This document shows, piece after piece, positions 18,229 through 23,896 of a DNA stretch of 64,000 nucleotides. The notes beneath the pieces are model-generated. The model saw nothing but the letters and a program-made list of their open reading frames with translations. It did no database searches and was not told the origin of the DNA. The DNA comes from Aureimonas sp. OT7 (GTDB taxonomy: Bacteria; Pseudomonadota; Alphaproteobacteria; Rhizobiales; Rhizobiaceae): positions 4,117,224 to 4,181,223 of the forward strand of contig NZ_CP062167.1 in assembly GCF_014844055.1 (NCBI RefSeq), given 5' to 3'. Numbering within the stretch: position 1 is the first letter of the stretch; each line of letters starts with the position of its first letter. The translations under genes and the position numbers were made by a program.

Positions 18229-19125
18229 ATGCCTGAGCTACCGGAAGTAGAAACCGTACGACGCGGGCTCGCCCCTGCGATGGAAGGCGCCACCATAATC
18301 TCGGTTGCGCTCAACCGGGCCGACCTGCGGTTCCCCTTCGATGGAGATTTTGCGCAACGGCTTGCCGGCCAGCGCATCCTGTCGCTGTCGCGCCGCGCCA
18401 AATACCTGCTTTGCGAGTTGGAAACCGACGACATCCTCGCCATGCACCTCGGCATGTCGGGATCTTTCCGCATCGAAAGGCCGCATGCCGAAGCGGACAG
18501 GCCCGGCCTTTTCCACCATCCGAGGGCCGAGGGTCGCCTGCACGATCATGTGGCGATCCATCTCCAGCGGCCGGACGGCTCCACGCCCAGCATCGTCTAC
18601 AACGATCCACGCCGCTTCGGCTTCATGCGTCTTCTGACGCGTGCGCAGATGGCCGAGGACCCGATGTTCCGCAACCTCGGCGTTGAGCCGACGGGCAACG
18701 CGCTGTCGCCCGGGTATCTCGCCCTGCGCCTCGCCGGCCGGGCAGCGCCCCTGAAGTCCGCCCTCCTCGACCAGACGATCATTGCCGGGCTCGGCAACAT
18801 CTATGTGTGCGAGGCGCTGTGGCGGGCACGCCTGTCGCCGCGCAGGAGCGCGGGCTCCCTCGTCCGCGCCTCCGGACAGGCGACGGAACGGCTGGAGCGG
18901 CTGACCGTCCATATCCGCGAGACCATCGCCGACGCCATAGCGGCCGGCGGCTCCTCGCTGCGCGACTACCGGCAGGCCGACGGCAGCCTCGGCTATTTCC
19001 AGCATGCCTTCGCCGCCTACGACCGCGAGGGACAGCCCTGCCGGCACGAAGGTTGCGCAGGCACCATCGCACGGATCGTGCAGTCGGGCCGCTCGACCTT
19101 CTTCTGCCCCGTCTGCCAGCGTTGA
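18229..19125 (+). CDS. mutM: Formamidopyrimidine-DNA glycosylase
   Basis: A 298-residue base-excision repair enzyme removing 8-oxoguanine and formamidopyrimidines. It has the catalytic N-terminus [14 protein letters not shown] (Pro1 after Met removal, Glu2), the H2TH region [19 protein letters not shown], and the C-terminal zinc finger with four cysteines (CRHEGC ... FFCPVC). The arrangement next to rpsT is typical of Hyphomicrobiales. Confidence 0.97.
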
Positions 19126-19140
19126 GACACTGAATCTCGG

Positions 19141-19169
19141 TTGACGCTCAGCGCCATATTCCCTATAAG
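19141..19169 (+). promoter_or_regulatory. Sigma70-type promoter for rpsT
   Basis: TTGACG (19141-19146), a 17-base spacer, then TATAAG (19164-19169). It lies 15 bases after the mutM stop and leaves a leader of about 145 bases before the rpsT start, long enough to carry translational control. No known leader structure was recognised. Confidence 0.7.
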
Positions 19170-19320
19170 GCGCGCCATGTTCAGCCGCTACGAGAGTCGC
19201 GGCTCCATCCCTCTTTGTCGACCTTCGGGCTGCAATGCGGGATCACCGACATCCAGACATGCGCGCCAGCAAGGCCTTTCGGGCACTGCCGGGGCGCGGC
19301 AACAGAAGAGAGACTTCGAC

Positions 19321-19590
19321 ATGGCCAATACCCCTTCGGCCAAGAAGGCTACGCGGAAGATCGCGCGCCGGACGGCTATCAACAAGGCGCGCCGCTCGCG
19401 CGTTCGCACCTTCCTCCGCAAGGTTGAGGAAGCCATCCTCGCCGGCGACAAGGCCGCTGCCACGGCAGCCTTGAAGGCATGCGAGCCTGAAATGGCCCGC
19501 GCCGCTTCGAAGGGCGTGTTCCACAAGAACCTCGTTTCCCGCAAGATTTCGCGCCTGTCGAACCGCGTCAAGGCCGTCGCCGCCGCCTGA
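19321..19590 (+). CDS. rpsT: 30S ribosomal protein S20
   Basis: An 89-residue basic protein beginning [13 protein letters not shown], the normal S20 start, which binds 16S rRNA helices early in 30S assembly. The upstream in-frame extension to 19141 is leader sequence covering the promoter, not protein. In many Hyphomicrobiales dnaA follows rpsT. Here it is followed instead by a terminator, a repeat array and an outer-membrane gene on the other strand. Confidence 0.97.
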
Positions 19591-19616
19591 TCCATCTGGC
19601 GCAGCGTTCCAATACG

Positions 19617-19651
19617 AAAAGCCGGGTGCAGCCTCTGCGCCCGGCTTTTTG
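19617..19651 (+). terminator. Intrinsic terminator of rpsT
   Basis: A long stem, AAAAGCCGGGTGCAG paired with CTGCGCCCGGCTTTT around a 3-4-base loop, ends in a run of five T. It begins 27 bases after the rpsT stop. Confidence 0.9.
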
Positions 19652-19732
19652 ACGTTCCTGCGGCATACACGATCTGGTCGTACGTCCATGCCGCCTGACC
19701 TCCGGTCGCCCACCGTCGCCCTTACCCCCTCG

Positions 19733-20440
19733 CCTTCCCATTGCTCGCCGCACACGCCCCGCCCAGCCGGCGGGCACGAAAAGGAGCTCCCGGGTTTCCC
19801 GGAAGCCCCTGTTCGTTTCCTGATACCGCGCAGCCGGTCCGTGTTCTGGTTGCAGCGGACGCGGCCCTTGGGCCCACGCAGTGCCGGAGCCGTCTCTCCG
19901 TCCGCTGCATCCGCAGACACCCCGCCCCCCTCTTCCAATTGTTCGCTCCACACGCTCCGGCCAAACGACAGGGCATGAAAAAAAGGCGCTCCCGATTTCC
20001 CGGAAGCCCCTTTGTAGTCTGGCTGCCTGCAGCCGTCCCGTTTCTTAGTTGCAGCGGACGCGGCCCTTGGGCCCACGCAGTGCCGGAGCCGTCTCTCCGT
20101 CCGCTGCATCCGCAGACACCCCGACCCCCTCTTCCAATTGTTCGCTCCACACGCTCCGGCCAAACGACAGGGCATGAAAAAAAGGCGCTCCCGATTTCCC
20201 GGAAGCCCCATTGTAGTCTGGCTGCCTGCAGCCGTCCCGTTTCTTAGTTGAAGCGGACGAGGTCCTTGGGCCCACGCAGTGCCGGAGCCGTCTCTCCGTC
20301 CGCTGCATCCGCAGACGCCCCGGCCCACTCTTCCAATTGTTCGCTCCGCACGCTCCGGCCAAACGACAGGGCATGAAAAAAGGGCTCCCGGTTTCCCGGA
20401 AGCCCCTTTGTAGTCTGGCTGCCTGCAGCCGTCCCGTTTC
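19733..20440 (-). repeat. Tandem array of about 199-bp units, each with a terminator hairpin, behind the omp gene
   Basis: Three near-identical units (19846-20044, 20045-20243, 20244-20440; periods 199, 199 and 197) and a fourth, decayed partial unit (about 19733-19845) lie between rpsT and the outer-membrane gene. Read on the minus strand, each unit starts like the last 10 or so codons and stop of the omp gene, continues through a small GGCTGC/GCAGCC hairpin, then a GC-rich terminator stem with a T-run, then about 110 bases of spacer. The first stop plus terminator belongs to the omp gene itself. Open frames through the array (up to 361 codons) are artefacts: 199 is not a multiple of 3, so the same segment is read in successive frames. 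Confidence 0.9.
20376..20407 (-). terminator. Intrinsic terminator of the outer-membrane protein gene
   Basis: On the minus strand GGGCTTCCGG, loop GAAA, CCGGGAGCCC, then six T, 34 bases after the gene's stop. Near-copies recur at 20176-20210, 19977-20010 and, more diverged, 19778-19808, one per repeat unit. Confidence 0.88.
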
Positions 20441-21220
20441 TTAGTTGAAGCGGAACGAAGCCTTGGCCCACACGGTGTGGAAGTCGAGGTCCGACGAGGA
20501 CGTCGTCGTCACGCTGCCACCCGCGCCGCCGGCGACCGGGGTATAGGTGACATCGAGCTTCGAGTCGCCGAGGTCGGTGTAGAGGTACTCGACGCCGAGC
20601 GAGAAGTTCTGCGTCACAAGGTACTCGACGCCGGCGCCAACCGCGTAACCGACATCATCCGTGTCTTCCGAGACGGAGACATCGTACAGGGCGGGAGCAG
20701 CGCCACCGACGGACAGCGTAGCGGTGCTGCTGCCGAGGTAGTTGTTGCTGGTGTCGCCGTAAGCGAGACCACCCGTGGCGTACACGGCGAAGCGGTCAGC
20801 CGCGTAGCCGAGCTTGGCGCGGACGGTACCGACATAGTCGATGTCCTGCTGCGCACCGTAAACCACCGTCGAACCCGGCAGCGTGTAGGACGAAGCCGTC
20901 GAGGCATCGATGTAGTTCAGGTCGGCGACGGCACCAATGAGGAAGTTGCCCATCTGGTAGTCGTAACCGACGTGACCACCGCCGATGAACGAAGCTTCGC
21001 CATCATCGCTGGAACCGATGAAGGACGAGTCCGTGGAGAACAGGCCCGAGTCACGGTTGAAGGCAACGCCGGCCTGGCCACCGACGTAGAAGCCGGTCCA
21101 GGTGAAGGCAGGCTCGTAAGCGACGACCGGAGCCGGAGCCGGCTCTTCATAGATGACGTCCGCAGCCACGGCGGGCGTAACGAAAGCGGCCGAAGCCAGA
21201 AGAAGTGCGAAACGGTTCAT
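20441..21220 (-). CDS. Outer-membrane beta-barrel protein, Omp25/Omp31-like
   Basis: A 259-residue porin-like surface protein. It starts MNRFALLLASAAFVTPAVAA, a clear signal peptide cleaved after AVAA, following the ribosome site GGGGGG. The mature part has FTWTGFYVGGQAG (conserved first strand of the family), alternating aromatic/glycine strands, and ends in Phe-Arg-Phe-Asn, close to the terminal aromatic signal recognised by the BAM complex. The barrel likely has 8 strands. Family members in Brucella and Bartonella are major surface antigens. It is divergent from the Fnr gene, and its 3' end is the apparent source of the downstream repeat array. Confidence 0.9.
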   Translation of the reverse strand: MNRFALLLASAAFVTPAVAADVIYEEPAPAPVVAYEPAFTWTGFYVGGQAGVAFNRDSGLFSTDSSFIGSSDDGEASFIGGGHVGYDYQMGNFLIGAVADLNYIDASTASSYTLPGSTVVYGAQQDIDYVGTVRAKLGYAADRFAVYATGGLAYGDTSNNYLGSSTATLSVGGAAPALYDVSVSEDTDDVGYAVGAGVEYLVTQNFSLGVEYLYTDLGDSKLDVTYTPVAGGAGGSVTTTSSSDLDFHTVWAKASFRFN

Positions 21221-21496
21221 TGCAGAACCCCCCATGTCTGTGGCCGGATCCAGTCGGTGCGTCCGAAGGCTTGGCCGTTGCTCTTGAGTGTTGCGTACCG
21301 ACTAAATGGGGTAACCGCCAGTTGAAAATAGTGGGGTTTCAGAGATCGGGCCTGGGTGTTGCATATCAAACACAAGTTGTTGTTCGGCCTGCGACACAGT
21401 AATTAACGTTGCGTTACCAGCCGGTCCCGAATATGCGTCGGAATGACGCAGCACCGGCAACTTCATGCGGTACTTTGCGCGGATGGTTAAGGATTG

Positions 21497-22258
21497 ATGA
21501 ACACGATAGCCGGCGTCGCATCACCCACTCCCGTGCCGTGCGAGACGTCATGCGCTTCCTGCGATGTCCGCGCTCTGTCGCTTTGCGCGGCGCTTCGCCA
21601 GGACGACCTGTCTGCGATGGAACAGGTTTCGACGGTGCGCAACCTCGCGCCGGACGAGATCCTGATCCACGAAGGCGATCCGGCGCGGCGCGTCTATACC
21701 TTGACCAGGGGTATGTTGCGCCTGTCCACGATCCTTGCGGACGGCCGCCGGCAGATCACCGGCTTCCTGATGCCCGGCGATTTCCTGGGCCTTGCCGACG
21801 AGGAGACGGTTTCCGCCACGGTCGAGGCCGTGACGCATTCGACATTGTGCGCCTTTGCCCGCACCGACATGGACCGGCTCCTGCATGACCATCCAGCGCT
21901 ACAGGCAAGGCTGATGCAGTTTACGCGCGCGGCGCTTCGCGAGGCACGGGACGGGCAGATCATGCTGGGGCGGCTGGCGCCCGTGGAGAAGCTGTCGAGC
22001 TTCCTTCTGGTGATGTCGACGCGGATGGCGGCGCGCGGCCTGCCAGCAAATCCGGTTCCGATACCGATGTCGCGAATGGATATCGCCGATTTTCTCGGCC
22101 TCACCGTCGAGACGGTCAGCCGCAGCTTCACCAAGCTGCGCAATCAGCATTTGATCCGGCTTTCCGACGCCCATCACGTGGACATCGTCGACCGGCGCGC
22201 CTTGGCGGCCGTCGCCGGCATCGACCAGGCCCAGGAGGCCCGGCACTCATCCCGATAA
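21497..22258 (+). CDS. Crp/Fnr-family oxygen-sensing regulator (FnrN-type)
   Basis: A 253-residue regulator starting at the ATG at 21497 (AAGGA upstream; the TTG one codon earlier is less likely). The N-terminal Cys15, Cys19, Cys22 and Cys30 include the C-x2-C-x7-C spacing of FnrN, and a central Cys118 supplies the fourth ligand of an oxygen-labile [4Fe-4S] cluster. The cyclic-nucleotide-type fold is followed by a helix-turn-helix whose recognition helix reads LTVETVSRSF, with the E-x2-S-R residues that read TTGAT half-sites. The perfect TTGAT-N4-ATCAA site between cydD and cydA is a probable target. It converges with cydC, overlapping by 12 bases. Confidence 0.92.
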   Translation: MNTIAGVASPTPVPCETSCASCDVRALSLCAALRQDDLSAMEQVSTVRNLAPDEILIHEGDPARRVYTLTRGMLRLSTILADGRRQITGFLMPGDFLGLADEETVSATVEAVTHSTLCAFARTDMDRLLHDHPALQARLMQFTRAALREARDGQIMLGRLAPVEKLSSFLLVMSTRMAARGLPANPVPIPMSRMDIADFLGLTVETVSRSFTKLRNQHLIRLSDAHHVDIVDRRALAAVAGIDQAQEARHSSR

Positions 22259-23896
22259 GCCGCCGTTTACCGTCAGCACCGTGTCGACGGCGCCGGCAGG
22301 CAGGTCGGCGTGGGTGGCGATGACGACGGTCCGGCCCCGGCAGGCCCGGCGGATGTCCGCGAAGAAGGCTGCCTCCGTTTCCGCGTCCAGCCCGGAGGTG
22401 GGCTCGTCGAGAAGCAGGATCGTCGCCCTGGTCAGAAGAATGCGCGCCAGGGCAAGCCGCCGCCGCTCACCCGCGGACAGGATATGCCCGGCCTCGCCGA
22501 CCTCCGTGTCGAGCCCGTCCGGCAGGGTGCGCACCGCGGCTTCCAGCCGCGCATCGGCGAGGGCCCCCCATAGATCGTGTTCGGCCGCGTCCGGATCGGC
22601 AAGCAGCAGATTATCGCGCACGGTGCCGAGAAAAATGGGCGCTTCCTGTTCCAGCAGGGCGACGCGCGCATAAAGGGCGGCCTGTACGGCATCCTTTGTC
22701 GATACCGTGCCGATGCGGATCGTCCCCGCGCGCAGCGGCGCCAGTTGCAGGACCGATGCAAGCAAGGTCGACTTGCCACTGCCGCTCGGGCCCTCGATGG
22801 CGACAACCGAGCCTTGCGGCACGGTCCAGTCGAGCGGACCGACGGGCGACGCGCCGTCATAGCCCGCGACCGCGGAGTCGAAACGCAGGTCGCCATCGGG
22901 AATATGCTCCACGCCCGCATGGCGCGGCGTCGCCCCGTCCGATGACGTTGCGATCTCCTGCAGGCGCTCGGCGGCGGTTTCCGCCGCGCCCAGTCGTGCG
23001 ACGCTGCGCGTCAGACTGGCGGTCGTCTCGAAGCTTGCCAGAGCGGCCAGCAGCAAGCCGGCCAATGCCGGACCCGAGAGCCGGCCGTGTGCCACCGCGT
23101 CCGTCCCCGGCACCAGCACCAGAAGCAACGCGGCGCCGGTCAACGCCTGAATGGACCCTTGCGCAAAGGCGGCCCGGTCCGCGATATCGATCCGGGCCCT
23201 GCCGAGCGCGGCTGCCGCCGCATCGAACCGGTAGAGAAAGCGGTCGCGGCACCCGAAGCCGAGAATCTCGGACCGGCCGTCGACACCGTCCAGCGCCATC
23301 ATGCGCAAGCCGGTCATCGCTTCCACCGCATCGCGGCCGGCCCGGCGGGTGGCCAGCGTCAGCAGCAGCGGGACACCGATGGCGGCCGCCGTGAAAGCGC
23401 CAAGATAGCCGATGGCGGCAGCCGGCAGCACGAACCACAAGACCAAGCAGAGCGCCGAGCCAGCCAGAAGCGCCGTGGCCATCGGTCCGATCGCCAGCAG
23501 AAAAACGACGTCCAGGGTGTCCACGTCGGCCGTCAGGCGCTGGATCAGGTCGCCCCGACGCAGGCCCTTGCCCAGCGGACCGGCATTCGGCATCAACCGG
23601 GTGAACAACCAGTGCCGCAACTGCGTCAGGGCCTTCAATGTTGCGTCGTGACCGCTCATCCGTTCGCCATAGCGGGACAGGATGCGCAGGAGCGACAGGC
23701 CGCGCACCGCAGACGAGGGCCCGAACAGGTTGAACGCAGCCCCGGCGCCGGCCAGGAACGCCGCCGTCAGGAACCAACCGGATATAGCGAGAAGCCCGAC
23801 GCCGGCCGCAACCGTCACTACAGCCATCAGCAGCGCCACCATGAAGGCGCGATAGTGCCGCATGAACAGCGGCCCGAATGACAGCAGCGCTCTCAT
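22247..23896 (-). CDS. cydC: Thiol reductant ABC exporter subunit CydC
   Basis: A 549-residue half-transporter with six hydrophobic segments in the first 300 residues and a C-terminal ABC domain: Walker A GPSGSGKSTLL, signature LSAGERRRLALARIL, Walker B ILLLDEPTSGLD. With CydD it exports glutathione and cysteine to the periplasm and is needed for cytochrome bd assembly. The ATG at 23896 overlaps the cydD stop (ATGA). The longer in-frame start at 23944 lies within cydD. Confidence 0.95.
   Translation of the reverse strand: MRALLSFGPLFMRHYRAFMVALLMAVVTVAAGVGLLAISGWFLTAAFLAGAGAAFNLFGPSSAVRGLSLLRILSRYGERMSGHDATLKALTQLRHWLFTRLMPNAGPLGKGLRRGDLIQRLTADVDTLDVVFLLAIGPMATALLAGSALCLVLWFVLPAAAIGYLGAFTAAAIGVPLLLTLATRRAGRDAVEAMTGLRMMALDGVDGRSEILGFGCRDRFLYRFDAAAAALGRARIDIADRAAFAQGSIQALTGAALLLVLVPGTDAVAHGRLSGPALAGLLLAALASFETTASLTRSVARLGAAETAAERLQEIATSSDGATPRHAGVEHIPDGDLRFDSAVAGYDGASPVGPLDWTVPQGSVVAIEGPSGSGKSTLLASVLQLAPLRAGTIRIGTVSTKDAVQAALYARVALLEQEAPIFLGTVRDNLLLADPDAAEHDLWGALADARLEAAVRTLPDGLDTEVGEAGHILSAGERRRLALARILLTRATILLLDEPTSGLDAETEAAFFADIRRACRGRTVVIATHADLPAGAVDTVLTVNGGLSG

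Follow-up and report, generated by a model that had tools for sequence, protein, structure and literature searches.

A tandem array of omp gene ends and predicted terminators between omp and rpsT in Aureimonas sp. OT7

Introduction

Serial terminators are known, rrn T1-T2 being an example, and so are dispersed palindromic repeats of the REP/BIME type, i.e. short non-coding elements that form hairpins and lie downstream of genes. A pair of termination signals, one Rho-independent and one Rho-dependent, is likewise described for galM (PMC9927376). With regard to convergent genes, earlier work deals with overlapping 3' UTRs in general (PMC7821165) and with the sbrB-lexA pair of Staphylococcus aureus, in which a mismatched terminator hairpin allows antisense RNA (PMC8745188).

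In Aureimonas sp. OT7, an array of short units was found at 19654-20485 on the minus strand of the window (the whole stretch of 64 kb that was analysed), placed between omp and the converging rpsT. Like REP/BIME elements, its unit is a short non-coding repeat with hairpins downstream of a gene, but it is confined to the array in its genome, the sole significant match elsewhere being to an omp paralogue end. Serial termination signals downstream of a single gene are also displayed by rrn T1-T2 and, according to PMC9927376, by galM. Unlike in these two systems, the OT7 terminators are homologous copies produced by gene-end tandem duplication, up to four in number, and the number of units differs between related species. 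With sbrB-lexA (PMC8745188), the locus shares a convergent gene pair and a mismatch in a terminator hairpin; whereas the lexA case turns on one terminator, OT7 has several predicted ones, with strong first and last hairpins around two mismatched ones. A full-text literature search, whose coverage leaves out most subscription journals, returned no description of such an array.

The array is real and represents a modest genome curiosity. With one, two and four units in related species, it affords a natural series for the origin and retention of back-up terminators. Should insulation of rpsT be what keeps the old second terminator in place, duplicating a gene end would offer evolution an easy way of making terminators redundant; otherwise, the locus would be a small example of an unstable repeat at the end of a gene.

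Layout of the array

The array comprises three minus-strand units of 197-199 bp and a decayed fourth. Every unit combines approximately 45 nt from the end of omp, either genuine or degenerate, with a short 3' UTR, a hairpin followed by a T-run, and a spacer. The features of the locus are as follows:

19321..19590, plus strand: rpsT, 30S ribosomal protein S20, converging on omp (TIGR00029, E 1.1e-23, scanned part 19333-19587)
19615..19653, no strand assigned: rpsT terminator, an inverted repeat between an A-run and a T-run (inverted-repeat search)
19654..19890, minus strand: unit 4, decayed, with degenerate gene end lacking a stop, diverged UTR, terminator 4 and diverged spacer reaching the rpsT terminator
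19891..20089, minus strand: unit 3, 199 bp, with degenerate gene end (TAA ending at 20045), UTR, terminator 3 and spacer
20090..20288, minus strand: unit 2, 199 bp, with degenerate gene end (TAA ending at 20244), UTR, terminator 2 and spacer
20289..20485, minus strand: unit 1, 197 bp, with the real omp gene end, 3' UTR, terminator 1 and spacer
20441..21235, minus strand: omp, 264-aa outer-membrane beta-barrel protein (open reading frame; Pfam PF13505 OMP_b-brl, E 3e-15)

As its A-run and T-run lie on opposite sides, the rpsT terminator is possibly bidirectional. Tandem Repeats Finder (TRF) reports the array at 19779-20454 with a period of 199, 3.4 copies, 93% matches and a score of 1125, the sole other entry in the rest of the window being a 33-bp array of period 10. 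A repeat search gives copies at 19830-20028, 20029-20227 (96%) and 20228-20426 (77%, ungapped), and a 39-nt repeat family extends into the fourth unit. The gene-end stops are located at 20441, 20244, 20045 and, with the stop lost, 19846, corresponding to spacings of 197, 199 and 199. Thus arranged head-to-tail and with high identity, the units form a tandem duplication array. Resemblance to the omp end covers approximately 45 nt, with local-alignment scores against the real end of 24 for unit 2 and 20 for unit 3, and neither score was equalled by any of 5000 mononucleotide shuffles. The initial annotation, which had described three near-identical units of 197-199 bp plus a decayed fourth, each resembling the 3' end of omp, is hence borne out by TRF, repeat search, stop spacings and gene-end scores alike. 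It had also assigned two hairpins to every unit, the larger one with a T-run, and both could be located, the short one being reduced in unit 4.

Between themselves, units 1-3 are identical to 100% in the UTR, 92-97% in the terminator and 94-99% in the spacer, so that the recent expansion of near-identical copies proposed earlier was correct. Unit 4 matches unit 1 to 68.8% over 208 aligned columns, and its identity to units 1 and 3 is 58% in the UTR, 75% in the terminator and 68-70% in the spacer. Its stop codon is gone (CAG) and its short hairpin is down to a four-pair stem on folding, while the terminator hairpin is still present. In the gene end, by contrast, units 4 and 3 agree to 96%, which defines the amplified block as extending from the UTR to the degenerate gene end.

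An assembly artefact is unlikely, since the chromosome of this human skin isolate, deposited as KCTC 82307 (4,181,223 bases, one contig), was assembled from PacBio RS II long reads (SRX9198886) at 267.7x (PMC7936629); with a read N50 of 15.8 kb, an array of 0.8 kb is easily spanned. A genome-wide dispersed repeat unrelated to omp was considered as well and is refuted for the OT7 genome by a search with the unit (E up to 10): the 15 matches are the four of the array, one omp paralogue end (E 2.9e-6; protein 82% identical) and 10 at E >0.8, and a REP/BIME-like dispersed repeat was rejected on the significant matches, which are those of the array and this one paralogue end. Against 151 genomes drawn from the family, the 199-bp unit gave E <=1e-5 only in the genome of OT7 itself, with at most five first-look candidates scored per genome in a sample that may lack A. 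altamirensis A31 and DSM 21988. A 228-bp query matched 14 of 21 genus genomes (OT7 included) at E <=0.001, the matches outside OT7 being gene-end, terminator-sized or short pieces. Such similarity searches overlook decayed units, as the second unit of DSM 21988 is absent from the 21-genome result.

Terminator and 3' UTR hairpins

All hairpins considered in the following lie on the minus strand:

20417..20430: short 3' UTR hairpin, first copy, GGCTGCAGGCAGCC (GGCTG-CAGG-CAGCC)
20370..20417: terminator hairpin 1 stretch, -25.4 kcal/mol, 14 pairs, T6
20171..20220: terminator hairpin 2 stretch, -17.6 kcal/mol, G-G mismatch, T7
19972..20021: terminator hairpin 3 stretch, -20.4 kcal/mol, G-G mismatch, T7
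19773..19822: terminator hairpin 4 stretch (decayed unit), -31.8 kcal/mol, T4

Each of the four OT7 units forms 12-14 of its first 14 loop-anchored pairs and has four to seven T in the eight bases past the tenth pair. Each is thus predicted to contain a G+C-rich hairpin directly followed by a T-run, as in an intrinsic (Rho-independent) terminator. Eight terminator stretches were examined (four from OT7, one from A31, two from DSM 21988 and one from A. frigidaquae), and for seven of them none of 200 shuffles folded as well, while four of 200 did so for OT7 unit 2. A pattern scan of 19100-22300 found seven terminator-like sites compared to 2.6 (sd 2.1) in shuffles. On the minus strand it listed only units 2 and 3, units 1 and 4 appearing as plus-strand sites, probably because their long stems pair away some of the T-run. 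The proposal of three to four consecutive terminators behind omp is accordingly consistent with four predicted hairpins with T's in series.

The short hairpin was followed into other omp ends. When the 45 nt after the stop codon were folded singly, 16 of 28 ends beat all but at most two of 200 mononucleotide shuffles, the hairpin at L041 looking like the terminator itself. The corresponding stretch of OT7 is no more stable than its shuffles (108 of 200 as good), nor is this stretch unusually stable in A31 (30/200) or DSM 21988 (49/200). For covariation, 19 omp ends were chosen by eye, namely those of OT7, L093 and L104 together with 16 of the 25 available Aureimonas ends. In this hand-picked set, a five-pair hairpin located after the stop codon and ahead of the terminator shows covariation at each of its pairs (92.6% of cells paired). 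A second hairpin, of seven pairs, spans the stop codon, its left arm being coding; 80.5% of its cells are paired, and it has no two-sided change. For both hairpins together, the covariation score was reached by 0 of 500 shuffles and the count of two-sided changes by 21 of 500. Once the nine ends left out before were included, the alignment of 28 ends did not line up the hairpin and predicted no covarying pair. Given this alignment and the single folding, the claim is limited to a frequent hairpin in other Aureimonas species and does not extend to a conserved module in the array. Strong hairpins just past the omp stop were observed at L044-L051, L054, L056, L060-L063 and others.

Related genomes at the locus

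The order fnrL - omp - rpsT - mutM is shared at the locus. A. altamirensis DSM 21988 carries two units. Its second one lies 215 bp past the first, contains a terminator, a UTR and a degenerate gene end, and is decayed (70.6% identity over 160 bp). A. altamirensis A31 has one unit with one omp terminator. The loci compared do not include that of ON-56566, another isolate of the OT7 species (97.46% ANIb; PMC7936629). A. frigidaquae (L093) likewise has one omp terminator, with a longer spacer ahead of rpsT; here the contig ends inside omp, and fnrL lies outside it. Hence, the four related genomes contain 1, 1, 2 and 4 units, one of the four being decayed. A downstream copy was detected behind two of 78 omp gene ends searched, i.e. 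OT7 itself and DSM 21988, the ends being from Aureimonas, more distant relatives and OT7 and the search using a cut-off of E 1e-3 over at most 1000 bases or to the locus end. Of the 80 loci taken for this search, L105, L109, L111 and L116 gave no gene end, and one further end was too short.

OT7 units 2-4 and DSM unit 2 have degenerate gene ends with one junction in common; in OT7 unit 4 and DSM unit 2, a decayed GGCTCCG-like junction replaces the omp codons, and both have GAACA in the terminator arm. Between species, spacer identity is low (33-59%); the A31 spacer resembles that of OT7 with a score of 19, matched by 8 of 5000 shuffles. Joint analysis of mutM and rpsT weakly groups OT7 with DSM 21988 (22 informative sites versus 14 and 13; bootstrap 69), and fnrL distances agree with this grouping. 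The omp gene of OT7, in contrast, is nearer to that of A31 (94.1%) than to that of DSM 21988 (92.4%), while fnrL and mutM are nearer to DSM 21988. Because of these opposite affinities, recombination may blur the history of the locus.

Proposed origin and possible maintenance of the units

On balance, the observations are explained best, and with reasonable though far from complete confidence, by a tandem duplication of the end of omp together with its 3' UTR, its intrinsic terminator and the spacer, the copies of which would act as back-up terminators. Judging from the relatives, a single duplication of the gene-end block would have predated the split of OT7 and DSM 21988 and thus probably arose in their common ancestor. 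After this event, two terminators in a row would have separated omp from rpsT, and the second copy would have decayed while retaining a strong hairpin. Subsequently, the OT7 lineage would have amplified a 199-bp block of UTR, terminator, spacer and degenerate gene end from one to three copies, presumably by slippage or unequal recombination between similar repeats. One older duplication followed by amplification in OT7 is the simplest account in view of the shared junctions and of the high identity of units 1-3 compared to the diverged unit 4, and the repeated duplication of gene end plus terminator put forward by the initial annotation was right. In functional terms, the array is probably a redundant transcription barrier, as far as can be predicted: RNA polymerase leaving omp would meet up to four serial intrinsic terminators, with a stepwise drop in read-through into the antisense strand of rpsT, provided that omp is strongly expressed, as the model assumes.

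Selection on the hairpins was assessed with a null model in which the terminator of DSM unit 1, taken as similar to the ancestor, received an equal number of random changes in 2000 mutants. None of these folded as well as DSM unit 2, 21 as well as OT7 unit 4 and 43 as well as OT7 unit 1. In both OT7 and DSM 21988, the hairpin of the decayed unit is thus more stable than expected under random mutation, so that selection seems to have preserved the old second terminator. In DSM unit 2, one pair has clearly changed on both sides (A-T to C-G) and another has probably done so (G-C to A-T). Identity of terminator over spacer was significant in three of five comparisons (Fisher), namely DSM unit 1 with unit 2 (p = 0.006), OT7 unit 4 with DSM unit 2 (p = 0.017) and A31 with DSM unit 2 (p = 0.0002), and not significant for OT7 unit 1 with unit 4 (p = 0.31) and OT7 unit 4 with A31 (p = 0.12). 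For the new OT7 copies there is no sign of selection, since 1458 of 2000 random mutants of OT7 unit 1 fold as well as or better than unit 2 and 1259 of 2000 as well as or better than unit 3; these newest copies may be neutral passengers. Hence, the earlier idea of a block selected against read-through into rpsT stands in part: it gains indirect support from the fact that the decayed unit has retained its hairpin in two species, while a strong need is made less likely by units 2 and 3, whose hairpins are weakened, and by relatives that have a single omp terminator.

The main rival is neutral repeat instability, in which repeats grow and shrink by slippage or recombination, terminator 1 already suffices and the extra copies are without effect. 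This is a serious contender, albeit one judged less probable than back-up termination, and it may suffice to explain units 2 and 3. It accommodates the varying unit number (1, 1, 2 and 4 across the four genomes), new copies whose mismatched hairpins are no better than those of random mutants, and relatives that live with a single omp terminator; that A31 and A. frigidaquae manage in this way is at the same time a point against a need for back-up. Speaking against it are the strong hairpins kept by decayed copies in two species relative to the random-mutation null, and at least one two-sided pair change in decayed copies. At the other extreme, the array could be a selected, still evolving one and gene-end tandem duplication a general bacterial route to insulate a strong gene from a converging one, with older copies turned by compensatory mutations into long, almost perfect inverted repeats that could stop transcription from both sides (cf. 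DSM 21988 unit 2), a far-reaching extension that is rather unlikely to hold.

A source of stable small RNA, in which read-through or processing between the terminators would set free structured 3' fragments of approximately 200 nt with a regulatory or sponge function and a dose raised by copy number, is improbable. In several Aureimonas species, the omp 3' UTR does bear a strong hairpin upstream of the terminator, and OT7 units 1-3 repeat a short hairpin, but the stability of the post-stop stretch of OT7 is that of its shuffles (108/200), a 228-nt region is folded no better than shuffles (z -1.29) and spacers are as poorly conserved across species as given above. Moreover, no promoter was found in 19100-22300 by a scan covering the sigma-70-like type, and a known RNA family was rejected as Rfam gives three matches, all far under gathering scores. 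The idea that the units are remains of several tandem omp genes with deleted bodies, also raised earlier, had to be abandoned as hardly credible, although there are seven omp-like matches in the OT7 genome (the gene itself and two adjacent pieces counted) and side-by-side omp matches in G003, G006, L046, L047 and L055. Gene-body sequence is missing from the extra units, each of which begins only approximately 45 nt before the stop at one common junction; DSM 21988 has the same short form, at E <0.8 the unit spacer matches no omp gene body of the genome, and the three relatives have one omp gene and one or two gene ends at the locus. The side-by-side genes in L013 (G003) and L014 (G006), furthermore, are without rpsT in their 1.5-kb flanks.

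Further observations

A protein-coding repeat was rejected, as open reading frames through the array gave no family match and 199 is no multiple of 3: a 361-aa frame on the minus strand had no match in Pfam or NCBIfam and a 168-aa frame on the plus strand none in Pfam. That the 361-aa frame (19246-20328) continues without a stop through a large part of the array and opposite rpsT is probably due to chance in G+C-rich DNA. A junction hairpin, TGCAGCGGACG/CGTCCGCTGCA, folds between units 2-3 and 3-4; as an array element it was discarded, since these regions fold with no clear gain in stability over shuffles (z -1.46 and -1.57, respectively, and 0.14 between units 1-2).

In DSM 21988, terminator 2 (L043, 4025-4073) is a near-perfect inverted repeat, CATGAACAAGGGCTCC...GGAGCCCTTGTTCATG, and possibly a bidirectional terminator. 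The A31-like omp at 20441-21235 of OT7, next to DSM-like fnrL and mutM, may reflect an exchange of the omp gene. Finally, the two A. frigidaquae contigs L093 and L104 both break inside near-identical omp genes, and their 3' UTRs match closely as far as the terminator, pointing to duplicated or converted omp copies.
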